Notes under the pieces: generated by a model
Told to the model about the DNA's origin: nothing
The model's input: only the letters and a program-made list of their open reading frames with translations
The model's database searches: none
Shown: positions 33,014 through 50,953 of the stretch, piece after piece
Layout: every line of letters starts with the position of its first letter
How positions within the stretch are numbered: position 1 is the first letter of the stretch
Assembly (NCBI GenBank): GCA_016789785.1
Contig: JAEUQE010000015.1
Coordinates: 1-64,000, forward strand
Direction of reading: 5' to 3'
DNA: 64,000 nt
From: Bryobacterales bacterium
GTDB lineage: Bacteria; Acidobacteriota; Terriglobia; Bryobacterales; Bryobacteraceae
Program-made: the position numbers and the translations under genes

Positions 33014-33060
33014 CCAGCCGGCCCGCACATCGGCGGAAACCCGGAGTATCATTGGTGTCC

Positions 33061-33978
33061 ATGCCATCTGGAAACCTGCTCGTCAACCTCTCTGATCTTC
33101 GCTGGCGTCCCCTCGATCGAAACGTGGACATCACCTTGTCGCGCGACCCCGGCCCGTCCGGCGCCGGCGGACGCGACAGCGAGTTCGAACTCGATCCCGA
33201 CGGCCACACCGAAACCGAACTCGAAGGCATCCCGACTCGTGGCGGCCCGGGTTCCCTGTACTTCCTGCGGTTCGCCTCACGCGGCTACCTGGATTTCTCC
33301 TTTGCTCAGTTCATCACTGAAGGCGATCAGAAGGCGCTGCAGGATGTCCTGATGGTGCGCAACCCGAAGCATGTGAAGTCCATTGACGCACCGGACTTCA
33401 GCGGCCTCCCATCGAAGTTAAGGGATTGGCTTTCGTCAGCCCGGATGTTGGCCCCGGCTCAGGAGGATAAGGACCTTGTGGGTAAGAGCGGCGGCGATCT
33501 TTACGACGCCTTGAGAGACGAACGGAAGGCCGGAATGTTGAACATCTTTGCCAAGGCCACGCACACTGGCACGGTGGGCGGTCTTTGGGAGTTCATTGGT
33601 GAGCCCCTGGTGTTCCGCCGCGACCGCTGCTTCGTTCGGGTGGACAACCGGTTGCTCCGGTTTCTGGCCGAAGACGAACATTTTGTACCGGCTCCCAACA
33701 CTCTTCACGATCCGCTTCCCGGCTTCCGGTTATCGAACAGCGTCAAGAGCGACGACAAACACGCCAATCTTCAAATCACTTTGCAGCAGGCCAAGGACGG
33801 TTCGTTTGCCGCCGATGTCGACATTGACGAGAGTTCGGGGTTTGGCCATTGGGGAGAGGTGCTGCGCAACTTCTTCTCTCGCCAGCGCACAAACCCATAC
33901 GCGATTCACGAACTGCTGCTCGCTGCCGATCTGAAAGAGCACACACTCGATCCAGGTTACGAACTGGTACTGAAATAG
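33061..33978 (+). CDS. Hypothetical protein with a decayed second copy 13 kb away
   Basis: 305 residues from ATG at 33061 (TTG at 33052 is an alternative). No signal or membrane helix and no family I recognise. Parts: LLVNLSDLRWRPLDRNVDIT, YFLRFASRGYLDFSFAQFIT, ADVDIDESSGFGHWGEVLRN and a C-terminal FFSRQRTNPYAIHELLLAAD. Trp and Phe patterns suggest a beta-rich fold with a helical end. Bases of three of its segments recur at 46828-47024 in the same orientation, exactly on the other side of the uronate locus. That makes it the left-hand border of the locus. Function unknown. Confidence 0.75.
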   Translation: MPSGNLLVNLSDLRWRPLDRNVDITLSRDPGPSGAGGRDSEFELDPDGHTETELEGIPTRGGPGSLYFLRFASRGYLDFSFAQFITEGDQKALQDVLMVRNPKHVKSIDAPDFSGLPSKLRDWLSSARMLAPAQEDKDLVGKSGGDLYDALRDERKAGMLNIFAKATHTGTVGGLWEFIGEPLVFRRDRCFVRVDNRLLRFLAEDEHFVPAPNTLHDPLPGFRLSNSVKSDDKHANLQITLQQAKDGSFAADVDIDESSGFGHWGEVLRNFFSRQRTNPYAIHELLLAADLKEHTLDPGYELVLK

Positions 33979-34296: not shown

Positions 34297-34325
34297 TTGA
34301 CAGCGGCGTTTCAATGTGGAATCAT
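34297..34325 (+). promoter_or_regulatory. Candidate lacI promoter (-35 and -10)
   Basis: TTGACA at 34297-34302 matches the consensus -35 exactly; 17 bases on, AATCAT at 34320-34325 is a poor but possible -10. The operator palindrome 34317-34330 covers the -10, the arrangement of a self-repressing regulator. Confidence 0.5.
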
Positions 34326-34330
34326 TTCCA
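34317..34330. promoter_or_regulatory. LacI-family operator, site 1 (at lacI promoter)
   Basis: TGGAATCATTTCCA is a perfect inverted repeat (TGGAA-TCAT-TTCCA) 15 bp before the lacI start. A near copy with the same ATG before it and CAG-like end lies just before the TonB receptor gene. Fourteen-base palindromes of this kind are typical binding sites of LacI-family dimers. Direct binding is inferred from position. Confidence 0.65.
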
Positions 34331-34345
34331 GCAGGTTAAGATTCC

Positions 34346-35398
34346 GTGAAGGCAACGGTTCGAGATGTCGCGCGGGCGGCTGGCGTGGGAGTGGCGACCG
34401 TTTCCCGCGTCCTGAATGGTTCCGGGTACTTCGACGAGGAGACCGCGCGCAAGGTGCGCGCAGCCGTAGCGGAACTCGGATACCGGCGCAACGTGCATTG
34501 GACGCGTCTGAAGCGGAGGACTTCGGACACGGTGTGCTTCCTCCTGGGAAACCGTGAGGCAATGAACTCCATGCAGATGCGAATGCTGGTCGCCTGCGAA
34601 ACAGTTCTGCGCGAAAAGGGACTCGACCTGATCTTCAGCGGGATTCGCTATGGCCCGGAGGCGCGGAGCAGTGAACTGGCTTTGCCGCGCGTCCTCGCGG
34701 AGGAAGGCATGGTAGATGGAGTGCTGCTGGCCGGGCAGCACCACGGGAACCTGTTGGAGTCGTTTGTGCGGATGGGCATGCCCTACGCACTGGCTGCGAA
34801 CAACTTCACCGGGAAGCCCTCCCAGATCAAGCACCACGCCGTCCTTTACGACGACCGGACCGCCTGCTACGAGGCCGTGCGATATCTGGCGCGGTTGGGT
34901 CACCGGCGGATCGCCTTCGTGGGCAATCAGGACCTGGTGTGGTTCCGGCGGCGCGCGGAGGGCTATCGTGCCGCGATCCAGCAGGAAGGGCTCTCCGAAA
35001 TTGCCGTGACCCACCCATGGCAGATAGCAGCCATCGAATACGGGAAGTTGGCCATCGCTGAGCTGCTCCGCAACCCGAAGCGGCCTACCGCGGTGCTGGC
35101 CGCCAACGACGAGGTGGCGGCAGGAATCTGGAAAGAGCTGATCCACCGCGGTGTGCGGGTGCCGCGTGAGATTAGTCTGGTGGGCTTCGGCGATCGCGAG
35201 GAGTTTTCGATTCTCGAACCGTCCTTGACATCGATTTCCGTGTTTCCGGATAAGTTGGGCGCGGAATTGGCGCGTATGCTTCTGCGGCGGCTCGAGGACC
35301 CGGCGACCGCCGAAGCGGCGACGGTTTTTCCCTGTCAGTTGATGGAAAGGGCAAGTTGCGGGCCCCCGCCGGCAGCATTGTCCGCGGCGTTAGGTTGA
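34346..35398 (+). CDS. LacI family transcriptional regulator of the uronate locus
   Basis: 350 residues from GTG at 34346. The DNA-binding headpiece is KATVRDVARAAGVGVATVSR, then VLNGSGYFDEETARKVRAAV with the hinge helix GYRRNVHW. The sugar-binding core follows (DTVCFLLGNREAMNSMQMRM, VDGVLLAGQHHGNLLESFVR, HRRIAFVGNQDLVWFRRRAE, PTAVLAANDEVAAGIWKELI, ISLVGFGDREEFSILEPSLT). Order and length are standard for LacI/GalR repressors that release DNA on binding a sugar or sugar acid. The transported substrate of the downstream genes is the likely effector. A matched operator lies at its own promoter and at the receptor gene 53 bp after its stop. Confidence 0.94.
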   Translation: MKATVRDVARAAGVGVATVSRVLNGSGYFDEETARKVRAAVAELGYRRNVHWTRLKRRTSDTVCFLLGNREAMNSMQMRMLVACETVLREKGLDLIFSGIRYGPEARSSELALPRVLAEEGMVDGVLLAGQHHGNLLESFVRMGMPYALAANNFTGKPSQIKHHAVLYDDRTACYEAVRYLARLGHRRIAFVGNQDLVWFRRRAEGYRAAIQQEGLSEIAVTHPWQIAAIEYGKLAIAELLRNPKRPTAVLAANDEVAAGIWKELIHRGVRVPREISLVGFGDREEFSILEPSLTSISVFPDKLGAELARMLLRRLEDPATAEAATVFPCQLMERASCGPPPAALSAALG

Positions 35399-35418
35399 GT
35401 CTTTTTTCGGGCTTGATG

Positions 35419-35432
35419 TGGAAATGTTTTCA
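35419..35432. promoter_or_regulatory. LacI-family operator, site 2 (before TonB receptor)
   Basis: TGGAAATGTTTTCA is an imperfect palindrome matching site 1 (TGGAATCATTTCCA) in 9 of 14 bases, including the outer TGGAA half and the TTTyCA end, and like site 1 is preceded by ATG and followed by a G. It sits 19 bp before the receptor ATG and overlaps the expected promoter/leader. Confidence 0.6.
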
Positions 35433-35450
35433 GAAAGAGGAATTTCTGCG

Positions 35451-38400
35451 ATGCGCAATACCCTGATGGCGGCCCTGATGACCGCCGGTATGCTGATGGG
35501 ACAGGATTTCCGGGCAAGCGTCGTCGGCCGGGTAACCGATGGCTCCGGTGCGGCGGTTCCAATGGCATTGGTAACTGCAACCAACAACGGCACCGGATTC
35601 GTAACTCGCACCAACAGCACCTCCACTGGCGATTACACGATCACGGGTCTGGCGCCCGGGGTCTACCAACTCACGGTTGAGATGAAGGGCTTCAAGAAGT
35701 TCGTGCAGGATAAGCTGACGCTGGCGATTCAGGAGCGTCCTACCATCGATGTAACGCTTGAACCAGGCGATGTCCTGACCAGCGTTACGGTTACTTCCGA
35801 TGCTGCTGTCCTCGAGACCAGTACGGCATCCCGAGGCGAGTTGATCTCCGGGCGAACCCTGGTCGATATGCCGCTGAACGGGCGCAACGCGTTCGCTTTG
35901 GCGGGGCTGGCCCCAGGAGTAGCCGTGACGGCGCGCGGGCAGGCATCGACGTTTCTACGACCCACCGCGAACCTGGGAATCTCCTCAATTGCCCTTTCAG
36001 GCAGCCAGCCGCGTCAGAACGAGGCGCTGCTGGATGGCATCCCCAACACAGGGTCGGACGGCCTGATTCAGTTCGTGCCGTCGATCGATGCCACCCAGGA
36101 GTTCAAAGTGCAGACCAATTCGTTCGACGCCGAGTACGGCCGGTTCACGGGCGGCGTCATCAACGCGATGATCAAATCGGGGACGAACGAATTCCATGGC
36201 GCGGGCTTCTGGTTCGTTCGCAACTCGGCGTTCAACGCCCGTGATCCGTTCTCAACCAGCATTCCGCAGTTCGGGTACAACCTGTTCGGCGTGTCGGCAG
36301 GCGCGCCCGTCATCATTCCAAAGCTGTACAACGGCCGCAATCGTACCTTCTGGTTCTGGAACTACGAGGGTTCACGCGAGGGCGTGCCCCGGGCCTTCGT
36401 GAGTTCCGTTCCCACGGAACTCCATCGGGCGGGCAACTTCTCACAAACCCGGCTCGCCCAGGGGCCGGTAACCATTTACGATCCTTCCACTACACGGCAG
36501 GTGGGCGCCGCCTGGCAGAGGGATCCCTTCCCGGGTAACGTTGTACCGCAGAGCGCCTGGGACCCGGTAGCCCGCAATCTCTTGGCTCTGTATCCCTTGC
36601 CCAATAATCCGGGCAACGCCGTGACCGCTGCCAACAACTTCCTGCTTTCCTTCAAAGATCTTACCGGCGACGACGGCTACGTGATCAAGGTGGACCACCG
36701 GTTCAGCGACGGCCACGCGATGTTCGCCCGGTTCAGTCTGCGCAACTGGTATGTTACCCGCCAGGGCGCCTTCAAGAACCCGGTTACCGGGGATGTGGAA
36801 ACGCGTGATGCTCCGGGATTCGCACTCGATGACACCTACACCATCAACCCCACGACCGTACTGAACCTGCGCTACGGGTTCACGCGCTTCTTCGTGAACG
36901 CGCGCTCCGATAATTATGGGGCCGATTTGCGCGGGCTGGGTTTTCCCCAGTCCTTCGTCCAGGCCCTGCCGGTGCAGGCGATTCCACAGATTTCGATTTC
37001 CGGCATGACCGCCCTCAGCGCAGCCAACAAGTTGAACCGCAGCGCCGAGAACGCCCATACGCTACGCGGCGCGCTGACCAGAGTCTCCGGGCGTCATACG
37101 ATGAAGTTCGGCGCGGAGGGCCGGCTGCTGCAGTCCAACGTCGGCAGCCTCGGTTCCGCGGCGGCCGGATCATTCAACTTCGACACGGTGTTCACGCGCG
37201 GCCCCAACCCGCAGGTGGCCAACGCGACCGCGGGATTTGGCCTCGCGTCCTTCCTCCTCGGCCTTGGACCCAGCGGCTCGGTCGCCAACAATGCCGCGAC
37301 CGCGGACAGTCTCCCCTACTACGGCTTCTACGCGCAGGACGACATACGCCTGGGCCGCAAGCTCACGCTCAATCTCGGGCTTCGCTACGAATGGGAAGGT
37401 GGATACACGGAGCGATACAACCGTCTGAACCGTGGGTTCGATTCCTCCACGGACCTGCCCATCGCTGCTCAGGCGAAAGCCAACTACGCGTTGTCTCCCG
37501 TTCCCGACGTGCCGCCATCGCAGTTCCAGGTGCGCGGCGGCCTGTTGTTCGCCGGAGTTATGCAGCCAGAAGCCATTAGCGACATTCAACGTACGAACCT
37601 GGCGCCACGCGTTGGGGCCGCATACCAGCTCAATTCCAGGACCGTCTTGCGGGGCGGCTACGGAATCTTCTATGGTGCGGGCACCCTCTCGGGCGAAGCG
37701 CGCAACGGTTTTAGCGTGTCGACGCCGTATGTGGGGACGATCAACGGGAGTCTCACTCCGGTCAATCGCCTCAGTAATCCCTATCCCGACGGCCTGCTCC
37801 AGCCAATCGGTTCTTCCCAGGGGCTGATGACTTTGACTGGCCAGGGAATCTCATTCACCGCGGTCGATCGCCAGCAGCCGCTCGCGCAGCAGTATCAGTT
37901 CGGCGTACAGCGCCAACTGGGAGCAACGATTATGGCCGAGGTGGCTTACGCCGGATCGGTCACCAGTGACGTGGCCCTTGACCGGCAGATCAACTTCATC
38001 CCGGCCGCCGTTCGCGATGCCGCCGAGAACACGTTTCGATCTTCAGGCCGCAACATTCTCAACGATTCTGCGGCGAACCCCTTTCGCGGTGGTTTGATCA
38101 CCGGTGGCGCGCTTACCGGCGCTACCACCACGCGCGGGCAACTTACGCGGCCATACCCACAGTTCACATCGGTGGTGGCAGGCGCCGCGCCGCTCGGCAA
38201 CATCCGCTATGACTCGCTGCAGGCGAAGTTCACCAAACGCTTCAGCGCCGGCTTCAGCTTTCTTGGCGCCTACACCTGGATGAAGCAACTCGAACGGACT
38301 CGCTTCTTGAATGATCAAGACCTCGCACCAGTGAAGGAGTTGAGCGACTTCGACTACGGTCATCGCTTCACGCTCAGCGGCGCGTACGAACTGCCATTCG

Positions 38401-38858
38401 GCCCGGGCAAGCGGTTCTTTTCCGGGTCAAGCAGCCTGATGCAGCGCCTGATGGGCGGCTGGCAGTTGAACGGCATTTACATCGCTCAAGGCGGCGTGCC
38501 CCTCACGGTAGGTGGCGCGCAGAGCCTCGGCCGAAGCGCCAAACTGGAGAATCCCACGGTGGGGCGCTGGTTTGACACGACTGCCTTCCGCCAATTGGAG
38601 ACGCTTGAGCAAGTGGGCACATCCCGGCTTCCTGACGTTCGCAGCGCGGGCAAGAACAACGTTGACCTCTCGGTGTATAAGACCACGCAAATCACCGAGG
38701 TACTCAAGTTGCAGTTCCGGGTGGAGAGTTTCAACACATTCAACCGCCCCGAGTACTCCTCCCCGGCGACCTCGTTCGGAGTTGCGAACTTCGGGGTGGT
38801 GACCAGCACCAACACCTTCGCCCGCCAGTTGCAGTTCGGTCTGAAGCTGCTCTGGTAG
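35451..38858 (+). CDS. TonB-dependent receptor with carboxypeptidase-like N-domain (uronate locus)
   Basis: 1135 residues from the ATG at 35451 with AGAGGA upstream; GTG at 35418 lies over the operator and is rejected. Signal MRNTLMAALMTAGMLMG. A carboxypeptidase-regulatory-like domain follows (about 20-100: FRASVVGRVTDGSGAAVPMA, GDYTITGLAPGVYQLTVEMK), then the plug (LVDMPLNGRNAFALAGLAPG, EFKVQTNSFDAEYGRFTGGV) and a large beta-barrel ending in LQFGLKLLW with an aromatic C-terminus. Such outer-membrane receptors import or bind oligosaccharides with TonB energy. First structural gene of the locus, controlled by the operator just upstream; the GH115 gene follows after 5 bp. Confidence 0.95.
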   Translation: MRNTLMAALMTAGMLMGQDFRASVVGRVTDGSGAAVPMALVTATNNGTGFVTRTNSTSTGDYTITGLAPGVYQLTVEMKGFKKFVQDKLTLAIQERPTIDVTLEPGDVLTSVTVTSDAAVLETSTASRGELISGRTLVDMPLNGRNAFALAGLAPGVAVTARGQASTFLRPTANLGISSIALSGSQPRQNEALLDGIPNTGSDGLIQFVPSIDATQEFKVQTNSFDAEYGRFTGGVINAMIKSGTNEFHGAGFWFVRNSAFNARDPFSTSIPQFGYNLFGVSAGAPVIIPKLYNGRNRTFWFWNYEGSREGVPRAFVSSVPTELHRAGNFSQTRLAQGPVTIYDPSTTRQVGAAWQRDPFPGNVVPQSAWDPVARNLLALYPLPNNPGNAVTAANNFLLSFKDLTGDDGYVIKVDHRFSDGHAMFARFSLRNWYVTRQGAFKNPVTGDVETRDAPGFALDDTYTINPTTVLNLRYGFTRFFVNARSDNYGADLRGLGFPQSFVQALPVQAIPQISISGMTALSAANKLNRSAENAHTLRGALTRVSGRHTMKFGAEGRLLQSNVGSLGSAAAGSFNFDTVFTRGPNPQVANATAGFGLASFLLGLGPSGSVANNAATADSLPYYGFYAQDDIRLGRKLTLNLGLRYEWEGGYTERYNRLNRGFDSSTDLPIAAQAKANYALSPVPDVPPSQFQVRGGLLFAGVMQPEAISDIQRTNLAPRVGAAYQLNSRTVLRGGYGIFYGAGTLSGEARNGFSVSTPYVGTINGSLTPVNRLSNPYPDGLLQPIGSSQGLMTLTGQGISFTAVDRQQPLAQQYQFGVQRQLGATIMAEVAYAGSVTSDVALDRQINFIPAAVRDAAENTFRSSGRNILNDSAANPFRGGLITGGALTGATTTRGQLTRPYPQFTSVVAGAAPLGNIRYDSLQAKFTKRFSAGFSFLGAYTWMKQLERTRFLNDQDLAPVKELSDFDYGHRFTLSGAYELPFGPGKRFFSGSSSLMQRLMGGWQLNGIYIAQGGVPLTVGGAQSLGRSAKLENPTVGRWFDTTAFRQLETLEQVGTSRLPDVRSAGKNNVDLSVYKTTQITEVLKLQFRVESFNTFNRPEYSSPATSFGVANFGVVTSTNTFARQLQFGLKLLW

Positions 38859-38863
38859 GCCCT

Positions 38864-40903
38864 ATGCGAAATTTCCTCGCAGTCCTGGCTGGCATCTGTA
38901 TCGCGGGACCGCTGCTCGCGCGGGTGGAACTCGTCTCTCCCGGACGAACCGCTAGGATCTGGATCGCGCCCGGCGAAAAGGAAGCCGTGCGGATCGCCGT
39001 GGCCGACCTGGTGAGGGATGTCTCTCGCATCACGGGACGGACTCTGGCGATCGTTCCGGACCGCACTCAGTGCGTGGCGCCCTGTCTCGCGGTGGAGACC
39101 AGACCCGACGGCAGGTGGGAAGCATATCGCGTCGCGGAAACGCCGGGTGGCCTGTCCCTCACTGGCAGTGATGAAAGAGGGACCATCTATGCCGTTTACT
39201 CCTTCTGCGAAACGTACCTCGGTGTGGACCCGCTCCACTTCTGGACGGGCCGCGAACCAACCAAACGGGACAGGCTCGTCTGGGACCGCGTGGCCATCGA
39301 AAGCGGCGCGCCGGACTTTTGCTACCGCGGCTGGTTCATCAACGACGAAGATCTCCTGACCGAGTGGAAGGACGGAGGTGGCGCAAGGCACATCGATTAC
39401 CCGTTCTACCATCAGGTCACCCATCCCGATCTGCTGGAGAGAGTCTTCGAGGCCGCGCTCCGCCTGCGGTTCAACTTCATCATTCCAGCGTCCTTCACTG
39501 ACATTGCGAACCCCGCGGAGGAACGCATGGTGAGGGACGCCACCCGGCGCGGACTGATGATTTCCATGCACCACGTGGAACCGATGGGCGTGAGCGCGTT
39601 TGCGTTTCAGAACTATTGGAAAGCGCGCGGGAAAAGCGTCCCCTACACCTACCATTCGCAGAAGGCCGCATTCGAGGAAGTGTGGCGTTGGTATGCCTCC
39701 CGTTGGGCGAAGTACCCTGGCGTGATCTGGCAACTGGGGCTCCGCGGGGTGGCGGACCGCCCGGCCTGGCATCACGATCCGGAGGCGCCCAAAACCGATG
39801 AGGCGCGCGGACGCATGATCTCGGACGCCATGCGTCTTCAGCGCGAAATCATTCGCCAAATCGATCCCCGGCCGAGCCCGCCCATGACCACAACTCTCTG
39901 GATGGAGGGCGCGGAGTTGAACCGGCGAGGCTCGCTTGACATCCCACCGGACGTCACCGTGGTGTTCGCCGACAATACCCCCGGCTGGAAGATGCAGGCC
40001 GACTTCCACGAAACGCCGCGCGATCCCTCCCGCACCTATGGAGTCTATTACCACCATGCCGTTTGGGGCTGGGGCCCGCATCTTGTTCAGGCGGTTCCGC
40101 CTTGGAAAACACAGGAGATTCTGAGGGAAGCGACCGCCCGGCAGAGCAGTCACTACGCCGTGCTGAACGTGTCCAACGTGCGGGAGTTCGTCCTGGGGAT
40201 CGCGGCGACCTCGCGGATGTTGCAAAAAATGGACGGCTTCGATGGACGCGCGTTCCTGAAGCAGTGGTGCGTGGAGCGCTTCCCCGCCGCCGCGCTGGAT
40301 GCCGAACAAGCTTACGTGAGGATGTTTGAGTCCTATTGGGTCGATCCCGACGTCGGGACTCCGGCGCTACTCGATGGAACATCTCTGGCCCAAGGAAAGC
40401 GTTTGTTCACGCGGTTGCTGGAACGGATCCGCGGCATCTCCACGAAGCCGGCTGCCAGACCCGTGGAAAACCTCAGCCGCTATTTGCCCAATATGCCCGA
40501 TCCGGCATCGTATCCCTTGCCGAAACTGCTCGAGGTGGTCACGCGGCAGCGCGCCGATGTCCAGGCGGCGGCGAAGAAGGCCGCCTCCATCCGCGGGCGC
40601 CTCGCTGGCACGGACCGGGAGTTCTTCGAAAACAACTTCCAGGCGCAGCAACAGATCCTGGAAGGAATTCTCGGCTGGCTCGAATGCGCGGTGCGGGCCA
40701 ACCTCACTGAGGAGCCGGGAGCACGGCTACGCTTCGTGCGGCAAGCAGCGGGCCAGATCGAACGGATCCGTTCCGGGCAAGCCCTTGCCTCGCGAGGGAT
40801 GTGGAAAGAATGGTATCGCGGCGACCGGAAAATGAACCTTGGCGCAGCCGAAAAGCTGACGCTCGAGGTGTTGGCGAGTTTGCAGACGGGAGAGATGAAA
40901 TGA
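38864..40903 (+). CDS. GH115-like alpha-glucuronidase, exported
   Basis: 679 residues with signal MRNFLAVLAGICIAGPLLA. GH115 enzymes remove (4-O-methyl)glucuronic acid from xylan or arabinogalactan. Family patterns visible: GTIYAVYSFCETYLGVDPLH, CYRGWFINDEDLLTEW near 155-170 with the acidic INDE, MISMHHVEPMGVSAFAFQNY (the HEPM-type site), VIWQLGLRGVADRPAW, DVTVVFADNTPGWKMQADFH, TYGVYYHHAVWGWGPHLVQA and SSHYAVLNVSNVREFVLG. Length is shorter than many GH115 proteins, which often carry C-terminal extra domains. Its stop overlaps the start of the enolase-family gene (ATGA). Periplasmic action on oligosaccharides delivered by the receptor is likely. Confidence 0.85.
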   Translation: MRNFLAVLAGICIAGPLLARVELVSPGRTARIWIAPGEKEAVRIAVADLVRDVSRITGRTLAIVPDRTQCVAPCLAVETRPDGRWEAYRVAETPGGLSLTGSDERGTIYAVYSFCETYLGVDPLHFWTGREPTKRDRLVWDRVAIESGAPDFCYRGWFINDEDLLTEWKDGGGARHIDYPFYHQVTHPDLLERVFEAALRLRFNFIIPASFTDIANPAEERMVRDATRRGLMISMHHVEPMGVSAFAFQNYWKARGKSVPYTYHSQKAAFEEVWRWYASRWAKYPGVIWQLGLRGVADRPAWHHDPEAPKTDEARGRMISDAMRLQREIIRQIDPRPSPPMTTTLWMEGAELNRRGSLDIPPDVTVVFADNTPGWKMQADFHETPRDPSRTYGVYYHHAVWGWGPHLVQAVPPWKTQEILREATARQSSHYAVLNVSNVREFVLGIAATSRMLQKMDGFDGRAFLKQWCVERFPAAALDAEQAYVRMFESYWVDPDVGTPALLDGTSLAQGKRLFTRLLERIRGISTKPAARPVENLSRYLPNMPDPASYPLPKLLEVVTRQRADVQAAAKKAASIRGRLAGTDREFFENNFQAQQQILEGILGWLECAVRANLTEEPGARLRFVRQAAGQIERIRSGQALASRGMWKEWYRGDRKMNLGAAEKLTLEVLASLQTGEMK

Positions 40904-42051
40904 GCGATGCTCCGAAGATCCAGAGTGTGCGGCTGTACCCGGTGTCCACGCCGCGGCTATACGGCGAGCCGAGCCAGCACGTGCTCGTTCGCATGGAAGC
41001 CAACGACGGTTCCGTGGGGTGGGGCGAGATCTCCGATGTCTCACACCTGCCCGCGATGCAGCCCGATGTTGCGGACTTGGCGCTCTGCCTGGAGTCCCTC
41101 CTTTGCGGCCGCCCCGCCACCGACCTGAACGGCGCTGAGGACTTGATGCGGGCCAACTTCCCCGGCACCCGGTTCCATGGGAAAGCGTGTCTGGTGCGCG
41201 CCGGAGTGAGTATTGCCATGCACGATCTGAAGGCTCGCATGCTTGGCATCAGTGTGGCGGACTTGCTGGGCGGTGCGCGCCGCGCCCGCATCCCGATCTG
41301 TTATCCCATCTTTCGCCAGAAATCCCGCGCGGATGTCGATGACCGCTGCCGTCTGGTGGATGAGCAGTTCGCCCGTGGATTCGACAAATTCCGCCTATAC
41401 TTTGGACGCGATACCGATGCTGACGTGGAGTTGCTGGAGCGCATCTGCGGCAAGTACGGCGATTCGATTCAGATCACATCGCTCGACGGCAGCGGTCTCT
41501 TCACCGTCCCCGCCTTTCATCGCGCTTACCGCCGCCTGAAGAGGTTCCCTTTCCAAAGCATCGAGAGCCCGGTGGATCGTGACGACGTGGACTCGATCGC
41601 CGAAGTGCGGCGCAATATCGACCATCCCGTCAGCGAGCATGTACGGAGCGAGGAATACGCCATCCGTCTGATCAGGACTCGGGCGGTGGACATCTTCAAC
41701 ATCTCGATCACCGTGGCCGGCGGAATTCAGGGCATGTTGGCGCTGTTCGCGATCGCCAGCGCGGCGAATGTCGAGTGCCTCATCGGCACCACGCAGGAAC
41801 TCAGTGTCGCCACCGCCGCTCAGGCTCTGGTCGGAGCGGTGGCTCCGCGGCTCGACTACGCGTCAGATCCCGTTGGACCATGCCTCTACCAGGCGGACGT
41901 CACGTGGGAACCAGTTGTTTTCTCAGGTGGCGATTTGCTGGTGCCCGAAGGGATTGGCCTCGGTGTGCAGGTGGACCTGGAGAAGGTGGTGGCTCTTACG
42001 ACGCCACTCAGCTCAGTGAACGATGTGAAGACTCTGTTTGTCCGAGGTTGA
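40900..42051 (+). CDS. Enolase-superfamily sugar-acid dehydratase-like protein
   Basis: 383 residues from ATG at 40900. N-terminal capping domain (VRLYPVSTPRLYGEPSQHVL, VGWGEISDVSHLPAMQPDVA) and a barrel with a KxR strand (FDKFRLYFGRD, Lys near 163), metal-ligand candidates in SLDGSG (Asp near 195), IESPV (Glu near 221) and SEHVRSE (Glu near 246). The strand IFNISITVAGG has Asn-Ile-Ser where many muconate-lactonising relatives have Lys, and no clear mandelate-racemase His-Asp pair was found, so the reaction is uncertain. In this context dehydration of an aldonate or aldarate made from the released uronate is the best guess. Cytosolic. Confidence 0.85.
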   Translation: MSDAPKIQSVRLYPVSTPRLYGEPSQHVLVRMEANDGSVGWGEISDVSHLPAMQPDVADLALCLESLLCGRPATDLNGAEDLMRANFPGTRFHGKACLVRAGVSIAMHDLKARMLGISVADLLGGARRARIPICYPIFRQKSRADVDDRCRLVDEQFARGFDKFRLYFGRDTDADVELLERICGKYGDSIQITSLDGSGLFTVPAFHRAYRRLKRFPFQSIESPVDRDDVDSIAEVRRNIDHPVSEHVRSEEYAIRLIRTRAVDIFNISITVAGGIQGMLALFAIASAANVECLIGTTQELSVATAAQALVGAVAPRLDYASDPVGPCLYQADVTWEPVVFSGGDLLVPEGIGLGVQVDLEKVVALTTPLSSVNDVKTLFVRG

Positions 42052-42057
42052 TCCGCC

Positions 42058-43332
42058 ATGACCGCTTCCCGCCTCCGCTGGTTGATCCTGGGAATGCTCT
42101 GCCTTTCTACCGTAATCAACTACGTGGACCGGCAAGCGCTCGCCGTCGTCCTGCCCGAGCTTCGAAAGGACCTCGGGATCACCAGCGCGCAGTACGGTGC
42201 GATTACGACCTGGTTCTTGGCCGCGTACACCGTGGGCCAGATTGGCGGCGGCATCGTGATCGACCGGCTCGGCACCAGGCTGGGGTTCGCCGGCTCGATC
42301 CTGATCTGGTCGATCGCGGCAGCGTTGCACGCTTTCGCGAGTGGTCCGGTCAGCCTGTCGGTGATGCGTGTTTTGCTGGGCATCGGCGAAGCGGGGAACT
42401 GGCCGGCCGGCGGCAAAGCGATCTCCGAGTGGTTCCCAAAGTCCCGGCGTGCGTTCGCCATGGGCGTCTTCGATGGAGGATCCGCCATCGGCGCGATCCT
42501 GGCTCCGCCCGTGGTCGCCGCCCTGGCCTTGGCGTTCGGTTGGCGTGCGGCGTTCCTCGCCACGGGCTTGTCCGGATTCGTGTGGCTGGCAGGTTGGTGG
42601 GCGATCTACCAGACCCCGGCGGCGCACAAGTGGTTACCGCCAGCGGAACTGAAACTGCTGCGAGAAGAGATCGTCGCATCGCCGGCTACCCAACGCCCGC
42701 TCGCGGATTCGCTGCGCTCCTGGATGGGAGCACGGCAGTTGTGGGGGCTGATGGTGACCCGCATGTTGGCAACGCCGGTGTGGTGGTTTTACGTTTTCTG
42801 GTTGCCGGACTATCTCAGCAAAGAGCGCGGGTTCACCCTGCGCGAGATCGGCATGTTCGGATGGATTCCGTTTCTCACCGTCGACATTGGCAAACTCCTC
42901 GGAGGAGGCTTGTCGGATCGCCTGCTTCGCGCGGGCTGGACGCCCACCCAGGCGCGCAAGAGCGTGATGGCTGCCGGCGCTTTCGCAATGCTGGGCGGCG
43001 TGCAGGTCGTCTCATCGGCGACCGCGGCCGGGGCGCTGGCCTGGGTTTCGCTCGCCACTTTCGGATTTGGCCTCTGGAGCGCGAACATTCTGGCGCTGCA
43101 TGCCGATATCTTCCAGGCCAGGGACATGGCTACTGCCTTGGGCCTCACAGGCGCTGCCGCGAGTTTCGGCTCGGCGGTATTCACCTACGCCACCGGCCTG
43201 CTGGTGGATGTTCATGGATACGCTCCAGCTTTCTGGGTGGCGGGAACCGCGGCTCCGGCGGCTCTGCTCTCGCTGATCTTCCTTCTGGGGCGCGTGGAAA
43301 CGTTGAGTCCAAAGGAGGCCGCATCATCATGA
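42058..43332 (+). CDS. MFS transporter, anion:cation symporter type (hexuronate-like)
   Basis: 424 residues, 12 predicted helices. The opening LRWLILGMLCLSTVINYVDR, then QALAVVLPELRKDLGITSAQ is the ACS-family pattern with NYVDRQ, as in hexuronate/glucarate carriers ExuT and GudP. The middle GIGEAGNWPAGGKAISEWFP and RRAFAMGVFDGGSAIGA are further family signatures. It probably imports the uronic acid or aldonate with protons across the inner membrane. Start 6 bp after the enolase-family gene; stop overlaps the SDR start (ATGA). Confidence 0.92.
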   Translation: MTASRLRWLILGMLCLSTVINYVDRQALAVVLPELRKDLGITSAQYGAITTWFLAAYTVGQIGGGIVIDRLGTRLGFAGSILIWSIAAALHAFASGPVSLSVMRVLLGIGEAGNWPAGGKAISEWFPKSRRAFAMGVFDGGSAIGAILAPPVVAALALAFGWRAAFLATGLSGFVWLAGWWAIYQTPAAHKWLPPAELKLLREEIVASPATQRPLADSLRSWMGARQLWGLMVTRMLATPVWWFYVFWLPDYLSKERGFTLREIGMFGWIPFLTVDIGKLLGGGLSDRLLRAGWTPTQARKSVMAAGAFAMLGGVQVVSSATAAGALAWVSLATFGFGLWSANILALHADIFQARDMATALGLTGAAASFGSAVFTYATGLLVDVHGYAPAFWVAGTAAPAALLSLIFLLGRVETLSPKEAASS

Positions 43333-44084
43333 GCGTCATGGGGTTCGCGGATCGAGTGGTCCTGGTCACCGGCGGCGCCCGCGGCATCGGATTGGCCACG
43401 GCAAGAGCCTTCGAAGCCGAAGGGGCGCGGGTGGTTGTCGCTGATCTGGAACCCGGCGAACCATGTGGAGAGTTCTGCCGTGCCGACGTGTCGGACCGGG
43501 CTGATGTCGCTGCGATGATCGGCCGCATCCGCAGCCGCTACGGGCGGCTCGACACGCTGGTGGCGAATGCAGGTTTGCCCTATCAACTCACGTCGTTAAC
43601 TGCGACCGAGGACGACTGGCATCGTTGCCTTCGCGTCAACCTCGAATCGGTCTGGTTGTGCGCGCGGGCCGCCCATGAGATGCTCGCCGCCGAGGGCCAT
43701 GGAAGCATCGTCACGGTCGCCTCGGCGCAGGGCTTGCGGTCCAACAAAACATCCTTCCCCTACTCAGCCGCGAAGGGCGGATTGATCGCACTCACGCGGA
43801 CGCTGGCCATTGAATACGCGCCGCGCGTCCGTGTGAACGGCATCATCCCCGGGCAGATCGAGTCGGTGCGAACGGAGCCCTATTTCGCCAGTTTCCGAGA
43901 TCCCGCCGAGGCACGCCGCCGCGTACTGTCTTCGTTTCCAATGGGCCGGCTCGGCAAGCCTGAGGACATCGCACACGGGATCGTCTTCCTGGCCAGTGAC
44001 GCCGCCGCGTGGATCACAGGAACGTTCTTGACCATTGATGGCGGACGCGATGCCGCACTTACGGATCTGTCGGACCTGAAATGA
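43329..44084 (+). CDS. Classical SDR oxidoreductase
   Basis: 251 residues from ATG at 43329. Rossmann motif VLVTGGARGIGLATARAFEA (TGxxxGIG), the NAG strand TLVANAGLPY, catalytic Ser in SIVTVASAQGLRS, and YxxxK as YSAAKGG (Tyr near 144), then GIIPGQIESVRTEPY and a typical end WITGTFLTIDGGRDA. It is a cytosolic NAD(P)-dependent dehydrogenase. In the locus it may oxidise or reduce the imported sugar acid. It belongs to the FabG-like group, not to the extended SDR group of known uronate dehydrogenases. Confidence 0.92.
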   Translation: MSVMGFADRVVLVTGGARGIGLATARAFEAEGARVVVADLEPGEPCGEFCRADVSDRADVAAMIGRIRSRYGRLDTLVANAGLPYQLTSLTATEDDWHRCLRVNLESVWLCARAAHEMLAAEGHGSIVTVASAQGLRSNKTSFPYSAAKGGLIALTRTLAIEYAPRVRVNGIIPGQIESVRTEPYFASFRDPAEARRRVLSSFPMGRLGKPEDIAHGIVFLASDAAAWITGTFLTIDGGRDAALTDLSDLK

Positions 44085-45196
44085 CGGTACAACGGCGCTC
44101 GGTGTGGATGAATGCGTGGGACCTGGATGGCCGCGAGCCGGCGGAGGTCATTGAGGCGCTGCGCCGGGCCGGGATGAACTCCTGCAGCCTGGCCTTGAGT
44201 TACCACGGGGGCCGCATGCTTCTGGCAAGGCATCCGGGACGCGTCGTCTACGAGCAGCCCGACGGGGCGCTCTACTTCCGCGCCGGCCTCGCGCGATTCC
44301 CGGAACCCCTGGTTCCCGAGGTGAGCGATCTTGGCCGGGTCGCCGAAGACTTCCTCAGGGAATGCCGTCATTCCGGCTTCGACGCACAGGCTTGGATCGT
44401 GCTTTGTCACAATGACGCACTCGGCCGGCGAAGTCCGGAGTACACGGTTGAGAACGCATTCGGCGAGCGTTACCACTACGCGCTCTGCCCCGCACAACCC
44501 GCCGTTCAGGACTACTGTGTCGAATTGTGCCGCCAGGCTGCATCGGTGGAAGGAATCCGTGGCCTCGACCTGGAGGCGCTCGGCTGGTTGGGCTACGAGC
44601 ACGCGGGATTGCACGACAAACGCGGCGTCCCTCTGCCGGCCCACGCGGCGTGGTGGCTCTCAATCTGCTGCTGCCCCGCTTGCCGCGTGGGTACCGGAGA
44701 TCTGCGCGGCGAACTCTGCGAACGGATCAGGACATGGCTCCGGAATCCCTGGCAGACCCAGGAGTGCGGCTTCGAGGAAGTGGCGGAATGGCGTGCCTCG
44801 GTTCAACTCACGCTGCTTCGGAAGATTCGCGCCGCTGCCGGGGACGCCACGTTGAATGTGCGGACAGCGCAGGACCGCCGGTTCAGCGGAGGCAAGTCCA
44901 ACCTTCGTCTCGAGGAAATGGCCGGCCTTGCACATGAGGCCACCTTCACCTTCTTCGGCGCGAGCGAAACCGCGATGGCATCGGGTTTGAACCAACTGCC
45001 GCACTCGCCGGCGATCCAGCGCAATGGCGGTTTTGCATTCGTAGCGCCTGACTGCAACTCGGCGGAGGACATCCGCAAACGGATCAGCCTTCTGCGCGAT
45101 GCCCGCCTGGATGGCTGGGGATTCTATGGTTTCGGGATGGCGTCGCCAACTCAGTGGAACTGGCTGATCGAGGCTCTGAAAGGCGGCACGGAATGA
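44081..45196 (+). CDS. Uncharacterised TIM-barrel-like protein of carbohydrate loci
   Basis: 371 residues, start inside the SDR stop (ATGA). No signal. SVWMNAWDLDGREPAEVIEA, then LSYHGGRMLLARHPGRVVYE and AQAWIVLCHNDALGRRSPEY, ENAFGERYHYALCPAQPAVQ, IRGLDLEALGWLGYEHAGLH, SICCCPACRVG are conserved in a group of uncharacterised proteins I know from actinobacterial and acidobacterial sugar loci. The pattern of strands and charged ends resembles a glycosidase barrel; ASETAMASGLNQL near the end could line a pocket. The CCCPAC run may bind metal. Cytosolic glycosidase or isomerase-like role is a guess. Confidence 0.75.
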   Translation: MTVQRRSVWMNAWDLDGREPAEVIEALRRAGMNSCSLALSYHGGRMLLARHPGRVVYEQPDGALYFRAGLARFPEPLVPEVSDLGRVAEDFLRECRHSGFDAQAWIVLCHNDALGRRSPEYTVENAFGERYHYALCPAQPAVQDYCVELCRQAASVEGIRGLDLEALGWLGYEHAGLHDKRGVPLPAHAAWWLSICCCPACRVGTGDLRGELCERIRTWLRNPWQTQECGFEEVAEWRASVQLTLLRKIRAAAGDATLNVRTAQDRRFSGGKSNLRLEEMAGLAHEATFTFFGASETAMASGLNQLPHSPAIQRNGGFAFVAPDCNSAEDIRKRISLLRDARLDGWGFYGFGMASPTQWNWLIEALKGGTE

Positions 45197-45248
45197 GCAC
45201 CCCCTGCAGCACGCGGTCGCCCTCACCACCGGAAAGGGAAAAACAAGT

Positions 45249-46682
45249 ATGAAACGTTTCCTGCTTTTACTGGCCATGGCCTCGCTCGCGGGTGCCGGCC
45301 CGAAGATCGATACTTCGCCCGATCGCGCCAAAACCCCCATCAACCCGGGCCTGAAACGCATCGGAACCCTGATCCCGCGGAGCGCCGGTCAGATCTCCGG
45401 CTCGAACTGGACGCTGGGATGCGAAACCCTCGACCGCGACTTCGCCAACTATGAGGAATACAAGGAGTACCTTGTCCCTCTCGGCATCAAGACAATTCGC
45501 TTGCAGGGTGGATGGGCCAAAACCGAACGCACGAAGGGCGCCTACAATTTCGAGTGGCTCGACCGGATTGTGAATGACGCGCACGGCCGCGGTCTCAACA
45601 TTTTGCTCGAAACCGGCTATGGGAACCCAAACTACGAAGGCGGCGGCGGTTGGGACCTCTCCGGCGACTTCCCCCACTCACCCGAGGCGCTCGCTGCCTG
45701 GGACCGCTGGGTGGAAGCGATGGCAACCCGGTACCGCGGCAAGGTGCGCGATTGGGCCATGTGGAACGAACCGGATATCAACAAGAAGCACCGGCCGGAA
45801 GACATCGCCGAACTCAACATTCGCACCGCCGGGATCATCCGCCGCGTGATTCCGGACGCCCGCATCGCGGGACTGTCACTGGCCAGTTCCAGCCCCAAGT
45901 TGCTCGATAGTTGCCTTCAGGCTTTGAACGACAGAGGCAAGGTCGGCCTGTTCCACTGGTTCATCTACCACGGGTATCAGTTCAACCCCGACCAGTCCTA
46001 CAAGAACGTGGAGGAACTCAAGGCGACACTGGCGAAGTACTCGAGTACCGCCCGCATGCGGCAGGGGGAAAACGGCGCGCCGTCGGAGAGAGCTACCAGG
46101 TTTGCCCTCTCCAATCACCCCTGGACGGAATGGAGCCAGGCCAAGTGGAACCTGCGCCGCATGCTGGGCGATCTGGGCCACGATGTCGAGTCCGCCGTGT
46201 TCACCATCTGCGACTTCAATCACACTGGACGCGAGATCAACCGGAAAGGACTTCTTCACGCCACGGAAGATAAGAAGGTCGACAAGATCAAACTGGCGTA
46301 CTACTCGGTGCAAAATGTGGTTTCGGTCTTCGACGACACCTTGCAGCGGATCCCGGATCCGCGGGTTCAAATCGAATTCGACAAGAGCACCGCGTCGTTC
46401 GTGTACCGCCACAGGAAGAGCGCGGCTCATCTGGTTGTGGCGTGGGACAATTCCGGAATCCCGGACGACAGCTTCGTCACGCGTCCAGCCAGGTTCGAGT
46501 GGACAGGCTTTCGGATCAAAGAGCCCGTATGGGTGGATCTGGTGTCTGGCGGCATCTACGAAGTCCCCGCTGACCGCATCTCCAGAGATGGGGAACGCAC
46601 CATCATCCGGGACGTGCCCTTCTACGACGCACCGGTTGTTCTCACGGAGAAGTCGCTGGTTCTTCCGCGCGGCGGACGCTGA
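45249..46682 (+). CDS. Exported clan GH-A glycosidase (GH39/GH5-like)
   Basis: 477 residues, start with AAAGGGA ribosome site. Signal MKRFLLLLAMASLAGAG. Barrel strands KTIRLQGGWAKTERTKGAYN, LNILLETGYGNPNY, and WAMWNEPDINKKHRPED with the acid/base Glu near 174 (the WNEP of clan GH-A); the nucleophile is probably the Glu in RMRQGENGAPSERA near 272. A C-terminal beta domain follows (FVYRHRKSAAHLVVAWDNSG, FEWTGFRIKEPVWVDLVSGG). Last gene of the run, 52 bp after the preceding one. It likely cleaves xylo- or other uronate-bearing oligosaccharides alongside the GH115 enzyme. Confidence 0.87.
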   Translation: MKRFLLLLAMASLAGAGPKIDTSPDRAKTPINPGLKRIGTLIPRSAGQISGSNWTLGCETLDRDFANYEEYKEYLVPLGIKTIRLQGGWAKTERTKGAYNFEWLDRIVNDAHGRGLNILLETGYGNPNYEGGGGWDLSGDFPHSPEALAAWDRWVEAMATRYRGKVRDWAMWNEPDINKKHRPEDIAELNIRTAGIIRRVIPDARIAGLSLASSSPKLLDSCLQALNDRGKVGLFHWFIYHGYQFNPDQSYKNVEELKATLAKYSSTARMRQGENGAPSERATRFALSNHPWTEWSQAKWNLRRMLGDLGHDVESAVFTICDFNHTGREINRKGLLHATEDKKVDKIKLAYYSVQNVVSVFDDTLQRIPDPRVQIEFDKSTASFVYRHRKSAAHLVVAWDNSGIPDDSFVTRPARFEWTGFRIKEPVWVDLVSGGIYEVPADRISRDGERTIIRDVPFYDAPVVLTEKSLVLPRGGR

Positions 46683-46827
46683 GCTTGAGTTCCTTCCGGC
46701 TTGTGACGATCCGGGCTCTACTCAAAAAACATTAACATTCCCCATCGCGCAGGCCAGCCGCTGCACGCCCGACGAAATAGCCGTAGCGGCTGCGGATCTG
46801 CAAGATATAGTTGGAGCACCGCGACGT
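46683..46827. other. Spacer at the right border of the uronate locus
   Basis: 145 bp between the last glycosidase stop and the decayed gene copy. It has an A-run (CTCAAAAAACATTAACATTC near 46720) and a GCCGTAGCGGC short hairpin near 46781. No gene, no clear mobile-element end. Confidence 0.4.
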
Positions 46828-47024
46828 CATCACCGAAGGCGATCAGAAGACCCGCTGGCATTCAGCGGCATCCCAGCGAAGTTCAGAGATTGGCTTCCGT
46901 CAGGTCAGATGATGGCCCCGGCTTCTCTCGCCAGCGCACCAACCCATACGCCTGTCACGAACTGCTGCTCGCTGGCCGGTCTCAAGGTCACATACTCGAT
47001 CCAGGTTGCGAATTGGCGCTGAAA
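46828..47024 (+). pseudogene. Decayed partial copy of the hypothetical gene at 33061-33978
   Basis: Three segments follow the intact gene in order but with gaps: ATCACxGAAGGCGATCAGAAG (46828), TTCAGCGGCxTCCCA...GATTGGCTTxCGTCAG...GGCCCCGGCT (46860-46924) and TTCTCTCGCCAGCGCACxAACCC...CTCGATCCAGGTTxCGAA to near 47024. About 60 bp and 415 bp are missing between them, the frame is broken, and neither start nor stop survives. Retained pieces look about 80% identical to the intact gene. Same strand as the intact copy, 13 kb apart, with the uronate locus between. Confidence 0.85.
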
Positions 47025-47084
47025 CAACGGTCGCGTCGTGCGCCGGCACTGCCCCTGGTGTTTCGAGGTTTTGCTGGCTGTCTC

Positions 47085-47102
47085 GTCCCCTATCGAGGGG
47101 AC
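47085..47102 (-). terminator. Possible terminator hairpin after a TonB receptor gene
   Basis: GTCCCCT-ATCG-AGGGGAC is a perfect 7-bp stem with a 4-base loop, 50 bp past the receptor stop on the minus strand. No T run follows, so it may be a protein site or half of a weak terminator. Confidence 0.35.
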
Positions 47103-47151
47103 CCTCCGATCGTGATGAGGAGATCACTCCGGGATCATCCGCACGCCGCCC

Positions 47152-50100
47152 TTACCACGTCAGCCGCAGTGTCAGTTGCAGATTGCGAGGCGTGTTATTC
47201 GAAAACCTCGTCAGCAGGATGCCAGTGTTTCCGTCCGGCACCTGCAGACCTGGGTTGTTCAGCACGTTGAAGAAATCCACGTTCAGCCGCGCGATCACGC
47301 GTTCCGTGATCGGCACCGCTTTGAACAGCGAGGAATTCAGAACGAAGACCCACGGTGCGGCGAGGAACTGATTGCGCCACGGGTGCAGGTTCGTGTTGAC
47401 ACTCGTCTGCTGCAACGCCCCGTTGCGCAGGGGCACGAAAACCGTGTTGGTCTCATAGAAACGGGCGTTCGGGTCATTGGCCGGGGGAGTTGCGGGAGTC
47501 GCGAACACGGGCTGGCTCGACGGCCGGTAGCTCGTGGGAACGCCCATCACGCCGTTCGGCTGTCCGTTCGCGGCCGTGGAGTTCACGCGATTGGCCGGGA
47601 TATAGCCGTTGTAGTAGAGCCAGCCATCAAAGCACACGCCGCTCCGGCAGTCCTGCACGGGAGTGTTCCGGTTGTAGACCTCGATGTTGTCCAATCGTCC
47701 CCAGTTGCCCGTGCCGATGGTGAAGTAGCGGCTGAACCACTCGCCATTGCCGGCGATCTGCCATCCTCCGATCAGTGCATCGAGAGCGCGATTGGCATTG
47801 CGTCCGAAAGTCTTGCCCTTGCCGAACGGAAGATCGGCCACCCAGTTCCAATTGACGCGATGCTTCGGAATGCTGATGTCGCGGCGGTAGTTCAGGAAGC
47901 GGTTGAGCGCGTTGTAATCCTCCGGCACCGCACCCCGGAGATAGAGGTTCGGCGTGAGCATATTGTCATCGCGCCATCCGTCGCCGGCCACTCGCATTGC
48001 GTTGGAGAGCGTGTAGAAGAACTGAAAGCCGAGGCCATCGGCGTAGCGGCGCTGGACCTCGAAGGTCAGGTTGTTGCTGTTCGACCAGCCGGTCTTGCGG
48101 TACTCCTGAATGGTGCCGAGCGTCTGGCGATCGTGATTGCGGCGAATCACACCGGCGAACTCTCCAGTGGGAAGCGGCTCGCCCGTATTGACGAACCAAA
48201 CGTAGTCGTTCGGGGCGTTGTTGTAGCTATACCATTGGCTCAAACGGGTTCCGTGCGTGCCGACGTAGGCGACGCGAACGCTGGTGTTGGCGAAGAGTTC
48301 GCGCTCGACGGCGAGATTCCATTCGTGCGCGCGGGCTGTAGGCTGATTCGGCTCGAAGTGATACATCACGCCATTACCGCGAGGGATCGTCAGGCGCTGA
48401 TTGGTGTCGATGACGGAGGAGCTGTTCTGTCCCGCGATGACGGTGGGAACCGAGCGCAGCAGATGGTTCGGCAGACCGTCGGGGCTGGTTTGCGCCTGCG
48501 TCGGATTGAACTGCAGAATCGCCTGGCCGGGTGCGTTCTGGGCCATGGTGCCGTTGTACAGGCGTAGCGATTCGGGGAACGCGAAGATCGAGTATCCCCC
48601 GCGAATGACGGTCGGACGGCCGAACGTATCGATTCGATAAGCGAAGCCCGCACGGGGGCCGAAGTCGAACCGGTTCGGGTTGACGAAGCGGCTGGGCAGG
48701 CCCGATTGTTCGAGCGGCTGATAGGTTGCGCCGATTGCATTGTAGGCCTGAACGATGGCGGGCAGCGTGACACCCAGGCGAGTGAGCTCTTCAATGGGAC
48801 GGCCGAGGACGATCGCGCGCGCGTCGCGGTTGTAGCCAATCATGGCGTTGTTCGCCTCCGTCGGCGGCACGTTGTACTCGTAGCGCAAACCCATGTTCAG
48901 CGTGAGACGGGACGTGACTTTCCAGTTGTCCTGGAAATAGAGCGCGCGCTCACCGGATCGCATGCGGAACCAGCCGCGATTAAACCGGGCATTGTAGTTC
49001 GCCAGGCCCATGTGGAAATTCGCGGAGTTGTGGCCGGTGAACGGAGCGGCCGCAAACGCCGACCCAGTGGTGGGATCGAACAAACCGCTGGCGTTGGTGG
49101 CGAAGTTGTGATTGCCGGCTGCCTCGGTCTGATCCACCAGCGTATCCAGCCGCTCGTACCGGAAACGGCCGCCGAACTGGAACTCGTGACGGCCGTAGAC
49201 CTTGGTCATGTTCTCGTCGATCATGAATACGTTGGCGTAGTTCAGCGTGTAGTTGATGCCGGTGTCCCAGTTCATCCGGAAGCCGGCCTGCTGGATGCGC
49301 GGATGGCCCCCTCCGTTGAATGGGTTGGGAAGCCCGTATTCCTGTGCGATGTTGCTGAGGCCCCCGAGCGGAATCTGTCCGCGATAGTCGCGAGCAAACG
49401 AAACAACCATTTCGCTGAAAAACGTGGGCGAGAACGAGTGCGTCCACGAGGCGACACCGTTGTCATTCTGGCCCTCATCAATGGCTCCGTTGGCGCGGCC
49501 ATCGGTGGATGTGGGCGTGCCCGCGTCGATGCCGCTCGAAGTGCGCCATGCATAGGAGCGATTCGAAGAGTAGCGGAAGAACAACTGGTCTTTGTCGGAG
49601 ATGCGATGATCCACGCGCGTGGTGACCGTCCAGTCATTGCGGTTGCTGAAAGCGGTGCCGAACCAGTTCTCCGCGACCAGCGGATTGACGTTCGGTTCGG
49701 TGGGCAGCGGCGTGATGTTGTAGAGCGCTCGGGCCAGCGGGCTGAGCCGGTTCGCGGGGATGCGATTGTTCACGAAGGGTACGCGGACCCAGTTCTGATC
49801 GCGGCCTCCCGTGCTCCACGGATCGTACAGCGTGAAGCGCCGTCCCGCGCCGTCGATGAGGCCGCTGTAGTCGCCGTCGCGCATCGCAGCCGTGTGCATG
49901 GTGATCGCACGCGTGGCCGCTGAGCGCAGCCGTAGACCTTCGTACGCGGCAAAGAAGAACGTCCGGTCCTTGCCGTTATAGAGCTTCGGCAGAAGAACCG
50001 GTGCTCCCGCCGATGCGCCGTATTCGTTGCGGATCAACTGTGGCGGCTTGGTGAAGAAGTCCTGCCGTGCGCGCGCGACGCCCAGGCCGCTGTTGCGGTG

Positions 50101-50823: not shown

Positions 50824-50953
50824 AGTGTCGAGAGTAGAGCATTCTCGTTCGGCGAGCAAGTGAAGATCGCGTGAAGGGCGGTCGCCTGGCCAGCCGGCGG
50901 AACGGTGGCCGGATGTGCGAGAGAGCCACTGGCCAACGAGAGAGATAAGCTGG

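Follow-up and report, generated by a model that had tools for sequence, protein, structure and literature searches.

A predicted LacI-controlled sugar-acid locus with a GH115 enzyme and a relative of galactarate dehydratase II in a Bryobacterales bacterium

A 64 kb stretch of Bryobacterales bacterium DNA (contig JAEUQE010000015.1, positions 1 to 64,000; hereafter the window) carries eight forward-strand genes at 34346-46682. The contig measures 65,358 bases in all and probably comes from a metagenome. They encode a LacI-family regulator, a TonB-dependent receptor, a GH115 protein, an enolase-superfamily protein, a major facilitator superfamily (MFS) carrier, a short-chain dehydrogenase (SDR), a TIM-barrel protein here called BAR and a clan GH-A glycosidase. 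Judged from its sequence and that of related genomes, the locus is very probably one LacI-controlled regulon. The fuller explanation, in which this regulon runs an oxidative route from uronate through aldarate to keto acid for an acidic plant sugar, stands at about even chances.

The genes are tightly packed, with the junctions of an operon. Gaps of 5 bp and 6 bp separate the receptor from the GH115 gene and the enolase-family gene from the carrier gene, ATGA overlaps join GH115 to the enolase-family gene, carrier to SDR and SDR to BAR, and 52 bp lie between BAR and the last glycosidase. An earlier sequence-only reading of this DNA had described the same order, strand, overlaps and short gaps, and it stands on all of them. 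The unit ends after 46682, because the next downstream gene (47152-51159) sits on the opposite strand; a consensus scan found no terminator-like site in the gap 46682-47152.

Predicted operators of the LacI protein

The regulator (34346-35398, forward strand; PF00356, PF13377) combines a LacI helix-turn-helix with a periplasmic-binding-type domain, and operator-like sites lie at its own promoter and at the target promoter, as in a local regulator. The lacI promoter (34297-34325, forward strand) reads TTGACA, 17 bp, AATCAT. A consensus promoter scan lists it too, but that scan alone proves nothing, with 2 promoter-like sites against 2.3 expected from shuffles. The palindrome TGGAATCATTTCCA (34317-34330) covers the -10 element (AATCAT, 34320-34325), and a second, TGGAAATGTTTTCA (35419-35432), lies ahead of the receptor gene; each agrees with its own reverse complement at 5/7 positions. 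The same TTGACA-17-AATCAT layout precedes lacI in loci L027, L028 and L029 of related genomes, and TTGACA also precedes the lacI site in L002, L033 and L034.

With the window left out, nine sites from four other loci were used to train a symmetric matrix, which ranked the window sites first (35419, 26.6 bits) and second (34317, 22.7 bits) of all positions in the 64 kb, the third reaching 12.2 bits. That weak third match, at 23716 inside the frame 22049-24310, probably arose by chance. When each other locus was left out in turn, its sites (2, 2, 2 and 3 of them; ranks 1-3 in L002) were also top-ranked, making five loci in all. The training sites had been chosen by eye, hence this result is partly circular, while four sites found afterwards in L033 and L034 were not so chosen. 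The upstream ends of these two loci (genomes G001 and G293, respectively) each carry an orthologous LacI and two sites, scoring 28.2 and 20.4 in L033 (next position 2.0) and 29.3 and 27.8 in L034 (next 4.2). The first operator has a counterpart ahead of lacI in all six other loci with lacI visible. The second has one ahead of the first structural gene in 5/6 of them; the L028 counterpart lies in the opening codons of the receptor gene instead. The paired palindromes, which the sequence-only reading had singled out over the lacI -10 and before the receptor, are therefore more than chance resemblances in the window and are conserved ahead of orthologous loci.

The strict 14-mer TGKAAWYRTTTMCA was scanned in seven whole genomes (46.6 Mb by rounded sizes). 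It occurs at nine places in six genomes, every one at the orthologous locus, and the backwards pattern gave 0 matches. Contig ends overlap in G472, so that its lacI promoter was counted a second time on contig 177; no match was found in G467, whose contig starts inside the dehydratase gene. Since TGKAAWYRTTTMCA was written from sites in the window, L027, L028, L029 and L002, matches there are partly built in; those in G001 (1/2 sites) and G293 (2/2), and the absence elsewhere, are not. A wider LacI regulon with strict sites was rejected, as the 46.6 Mb hold no further such site, although weaker outlying sites could remain.

Some results weigh against so clean a picture. The 14-mer catches 8/13 known sites in six genomes, that is, strong sites only, and weaker ones elsewhere could escape it. 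If only the two window sites go into the matrix, the same sites come out on top in L027, L028, L029 and L002, but the second L028 site barely leads (13.5 versus 12.0), and a position inside the L032 glycosidase gene scores 17.5 (11.9 with the full matrix). It is nevertheless very improbable that the palindromes resemble each other by chance, or that they belong to a global, CcpA-like LacI-type regulator instead of the locus LacI: their motif does resemble the common LacI-family operator type, yet the strict motif is restricted to this locus and the out-of-sample prediction was right at 4/4 sites. Their reading as predicted LacI operators, conserved at the promoter of lacI and where the structural genes begin, is well supported. 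LacI would repress both promoters and would be released by a sugar or sugar acid derived from the substrate.

Conserved core, dehydratase and GH115 enzyme

Eight loci were compared, the window's and those of G628, G472, G464, G467, G001, G002 and G293. Dehydratase and SDR genes are present in 8/8 (71-83% and 58-77% identity to the window proteins) and LacI in 7/7 with that side visible (57-75%), the contig of the seventh other genome being cut; lacI orthologues thus adjoin these genes in 6/7 other genomes, as the sequence-only reading had expected. The carrier and the last glycosidase each occur in 7/8 loci (neither in the G002 stretch), as does BAR (not in G293). A receptor orthologue adjoins lacI in 5/7 loci. 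Full GH115 genes are found in 4/7; the gene is truncated in G002, is not in the G464 and G293 stretches examined, and the place is not visible in G467. The whole eight-gene order recurs in G628 and G472; in G001 and G472 the core has GH28 genes, which fit a uronate theme, as neighbours.

LacI, dehydratase and SDR are thus the constant core, and GH115 is accessory. A fixed link of the core to GH115 is rejected on these absences and the truncation. Since GH115 is accessory, the regulon is defined by intracellular acid-sugar chemistry, not by glucuronate release; of the uronate-release regulon proposed earlier, the LacI regulon is upheld and release drops out as a constant part. The dehydratase orthologue is rare, occurring in 5/237 genomes of G001's family at E <=1e-60 and in 2/396 genomes sampled over the phylum at 1e-50, with G001 in both counts.

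Two loci show unusual arrangements. At 7067-7975 of L002 (Luteitalea), a 302-residue frame joins a GH28-like start, recognised by eye, to the C-terminal third of GH115, by deletion or misassembly. In L032 (6311-11900; G293), where BAR and GH115 are not in the stretch examined, genes for an RraA-like aldolase, a symporter-like protein (by eye), a laminin-G protein and an aldo-keto reductase precede the dehydratase gene.

The enolase-superfamily protein (40900-42051, forward strand; MR_MLE N and C domains in Pfam) has as its best solved match by far the Oceanobacillus iheyensis structures 2oqy/3hpf (E 1.8e-75, 257 bits, 39% identity over 358 aligned residues; next family 108 bits). We take these to be galactarate dehydratase II, and 2oqy presumably belongs to the galactarate dehydratase 2 subgroup of the SFLD. 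The mechanism reportedly described by Rakus et al. in 2009 has an Arg162-Tyr164 base, Tyr90 as acid and His246 as fifth-strand metal ligand. In the window protein, the dyad and histidine map to R165-x-Y167 and H247, together with the further metal ligands D196 and E222, and all five residues are invariant in 120 listed of 237 homologues, the window's included. SHLP and TTQE motifs are common to both enzymes as well, and JGI names some listed homologues galactarate dehydratase (D-threo-forming). The window protein differs by a one-residue deletion, by the change of Tyr90 to His and by its setting in a LacI/receptor/GH115 operon. That the SFLD keeps galactarate dehydratase 2 as a separate subgroup is stated in an excerpt of PMC7246345.

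Because the general acid Tyr90 is His93 in the window, galactarate specificity cannot be assumed, and the protein is filed as a relative, not a member, of galactarate dehydratase II. At this position, the 120 listed of 237 homologues have His 92 times, Tyr 27 times and Phe once. This set of residues explains why the site had looked unfamiliar: the sequence-only reading saw no familiar catalytic residues in it, but a precedent does exist in galactarate dehydratase II. The best NCBIfam profile is TIGR02534 (139 bits versus a cut-off of 335). Enzymes of the MLE subgroup carry Lys-x-Lys on strand 2 and Lys on strand 6. An MLE-type muconate cycloisomerase was rejected, since these catalytic lysines are absent (1nu5 Lys, Lys to Arg165, Tyr167; Lys to Ser269). 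The enzyme is likely, on these residues, an acid-sugar dehydratase, and a hexarate is slightly favoured as its substrate.

The GH115 gene (38864-40903, forward strand; signal peptide apparent by eye) matches PF15979 at E 6.7e-55 (187 bits versus a cut-off of 27), which bears out the family assignment made earlier from the letters alone. Its nearest solved relatives are BtGH115A (5by3, E 4.8e-23), wtsAgu115A and BoAgu115A. An excerpt of PMC3879575 names Asp206, Arg328, Asp332, Glu375, Tyr420 and His422 of BoAgu115A as critical for activity; they correspond to D161, R294, D298, E348, Y395 and H397 in the window. All six are kept in the window, L027, L028 and L001, and the truncated L002 copy is without most of the region. 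The protein very probably acts as an alpha-uronidase.

Its predicted pocket is altered. BoAgu115A Trp245, Met248 and Trp249 become Ile, Ser and Phe, and at the place of Asp424, one residue beyond the aligned part of BoAgu115A, Ala stands in the window and Ser in BtGH115A, with a Trp two residues further on in both. BtGH115A, a (4-O-methyl)glucuronidase on arabinogalactan (5BY3), is the best solved relative, although overall identity is low and the match covers residues 86-471; excerpts of PMC13059095 and PMC9063842 describe it as an arabinogalactan-active GH115 member. Arabinogalactan-type or other alpha-uronides are therefore as likely a substrate, on this alignment, as glucuronoxylan.

Possible routes for the acid sugar

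In the proposed route, the receptor would carry oligosaccharides across the outer membrane, and the secreted GH115 enzyme (with the GH39-like last glycosidase) would free (4-O-methyl)glucuronate or a similar uronate, which the MFS carrier would import. The SDR would oxidise the uronate to an aldarate (lactone). The Arg-Tyr dyad of the dehydratase would then abstract the proton alpha to the carboxylate, and loss of water would leave a 2-keto-3-deoxy-hexarate that feeds central metabolism, while BAR would hydrolyse an imported oligouronide or a pathway intermediate in the cytoplasm. With galactarate dehydratase II as precedent, the simplest reading makes this a variant of the oxidative aldarate route. 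We infer repression and induction, the substrate, the reaction order and the role of BAR.

The carrier (42058-43332, forward strand; PF07690, MFS_1) is a predicted sugar-acid importer of the anion:cation symporter type. Its nearest solved structure is the D-galactonate transporter 6e9n (E 5.8e-51), and it scores 269 bits with TIGR00893, under the cut-off of 395. The SDR gene (43329-44084, forward strand, start ATG 43329; queried from 43335) encodes a classical SDR (PF13561, 181.7 bits; PF00106, adh_short). Udh has the extended-SDR/Epimerase profile, and Udh was rejected for this protein because the Epimerase match (PF01370) reaches 20.0 bits, under the cut-off of 20.9. The proposed route would in this respect differ from Udh-based ones, as had been supposed. 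We infer from context alone that the SDR oxidises a uronate, and that it makes the hexarate has somewhat less than an even chance.

Several observations count against the proposed route, besides the histidine at the Tyr90 position. The SDR has no specificity-bearing match, its best solved relatives being spread over many named activities, and SDRs of the classical type are also able to work downstream of the dehydratase. Given the patchy occurrence of GH115, the core substrate need not be glucuronate. Pfam shows no keto-acid-processing family among the eight genes, and KdgD-like proteins occur, but all of those in the seven genomes score under the curated cut-off. UxaC occurs in 5/7 genomes, so an isomerase route coexists in most. 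The KdgD and UxuA searches match broad paralogues and decide nothing.

The strongest alternative, although a good deal less probable than even, is that the imported substrate is an aldarate or aldonate. The dehydratase would act first and the SDR would then oxidise its 2-keto-3-deoxy product, as in routes of the L-fucose/L-rhamnose type, with the secreted glycosidases loosely related to the core. A carrier closest to a D-galactonate transporter, a classical SDR instead of the extended kind of Udh, and a constant dehydratase and SDR beside a variable GH115 all suit this order, as do FAA_hydrolase, Amidohydro_2 and HpcH/HpaI aldolase genes around distant BAR genes. It has to contend with an O. 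iheyensis relative that is said to be specific for a diacid, and with uronate-releasing GH115 or GH28 genes that adjoin the core in several loci.

Rather unlikely, at roughly one chance in a few, is a rhamnogalacturonan or galacturonide locus, in which the SDR would convert galacturonate to galactarate, a galactarate dehydratase II activity would yield the keto acid, and GH115 would trim glucuronate decorations. The homology of the dehydratase to galactarate dehydratase II speaks for it, together with the GH28 genes beside the core in two genomes and the GH28-like start, seen by eye only, fused to the GH115 remnant in G002. The change of Tyr90 to His speaks against it, and GH28 is absent among the eight window genes and not constant in the other loci.

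Over and above the proposed oxidative uronate route, a bolder and clearly improbable version can be drawn, in which the locus would encode a so far undescribed oxidative 4-O-methylglucuronate pathway. GH115 would free the sugar, the SDR would form 4-O-methylglucarate, and the dehydratase, with its deletion and with histidine in place of the Tyr90 that protonates the leaving group, would eliminate methanol rather than water. BAR, as the first of a new family of cytoplasmic TIM-barrel enzymes, would handle an imported oligouronide or lactone. For the first oxidation, an excerpt of PMC7071571 gives an in vitro precedent with known uronate dehydrogenases. Titles and abstract starts in the open-access literature, searched for the regulon, 4-O-methylglucuronate catabolism and Bryobacter glucuronidases, contained no description of the locus; subscription papers were mostly outside this scope.

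Remaining genes and comparison with known systems

BAR (44081-45196, forward strand; no signal peptide by eye) is a predicted TIM barrel of the glycosidase type. It has no Pfam match at E 0.01, including GH42 PF02449, and a PDB sequence search returned chance matches only. NCBIfam gave 0 families each for BAR, the GH115 protein and the last gene. Fold searches list glycosidase barrels, among them GH42, GH153 (PgaB) and Cwp19, at 8-14% identity. An AP-endonuclease-like isomerase was rejected because these barrels were listed instead, which does not exclude unlisted folds. The Asp/His pair of GH156 (in an excerpt of PMC6811678) was considered as a guide to BAR and led no further. Invariant residues of BAR include H42, H110, E165, H174, H178 and four Cys. 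A Cys4 zinc cluster is found in GH42. The family comprises 71 proteins found, without Pfam annotation; 13/396 phylum genomes have a member at E 0.001 (above 200 bits in five), and two loci turned up when the species-genome collection was scanned with a pattern. BAR is predicted to be a cytoplasmic hydrolase, probably of an oligouronide brought into the cell or of an intermediate of the pathway. Stretches around distant BAR genes (L017, L018, L019) hold Amidohydro_2, FAA_hydrolase, HpcH/HpaI aldolase, aldehyde dehydrogenase and creatininase genes, the equipment of oxidative sugar-acid routes.

The last gene (45249-46682, forward strand; signal peptide apparent by eye) encodes a clan GH-A glycosidase with a predicted GH39/PslG-like fold. 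Its Pfam match to GH42 is weak (E 3.3e-6), PF01229 is not matched by the window protein and is carried by some homologues, and GH39/PslG structures rank first. It is 31-36% identical to the G628, G472, G464, G467 and G001 copies (59-77% among themselves) and 46.5% to the G293 copy, compared with 72-76% to homologues named Verrucomicrobiota/Kiritimatiellia among 120 listed of 2384. By these identities, it is a xenologue of its positional counterparts in the other loci, likely brought in by horizontal transfer as a replacement, and it is the least certain member of the locus. The receptor (35451-38858, forward strand) is an Oar-like outer-membrane protein with OMP_b-brl_4 and CarboxypepD_reg domains in Pfam (PF25183 E 2.7e-200, PF13620; PF00593 E 4.9e-8).

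A gene with no Pfam match (33052-33978) borders the locus on one side, and a decayed, internally deleted partial copy of it lies at 46827-47024, right after the last gene. The two share about 86% nucleotide identity, and their spacing falls from 13,464 to 13,049 bp, a pattern that would fit insertion of the locus into a duplicated gene. The flanking gene has no match in the other loci compared.

These findings provide a sharply defined, locus-specific LacI operator, predicted for a soil phylum with few studied regulons. They also place an enolase subgroup, represented here by a single solved enzyme, in a biological setting, and mark the BAR family as a likely part of sugar-acid catabolism. Additionally, three cytoplasmic enzymes are now at hand for testing directly what bacteria do with 4-O-methylglucuronate once GH115 has released it.

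The locus shares the logic of classical hexuronate regulons (UxaC/UxuAB; Udh-GarD/KdgD), with an importer and catabolic enzymes under a local regulator. Unlike them, it has no isomerase or Udh among its eight genes, its regulator is of the LacI type, and its dehydratase comes from another enolase subgroup. Like the SusCD loci of Bacteroidota, it places a receptor beside secreted glycosidases and a local regulator, yet it lacks a SusD-like gene among the eight, uses an OMP_b-brl_4 receptor and a LacI regulator, and includes the catabolic enzymes.

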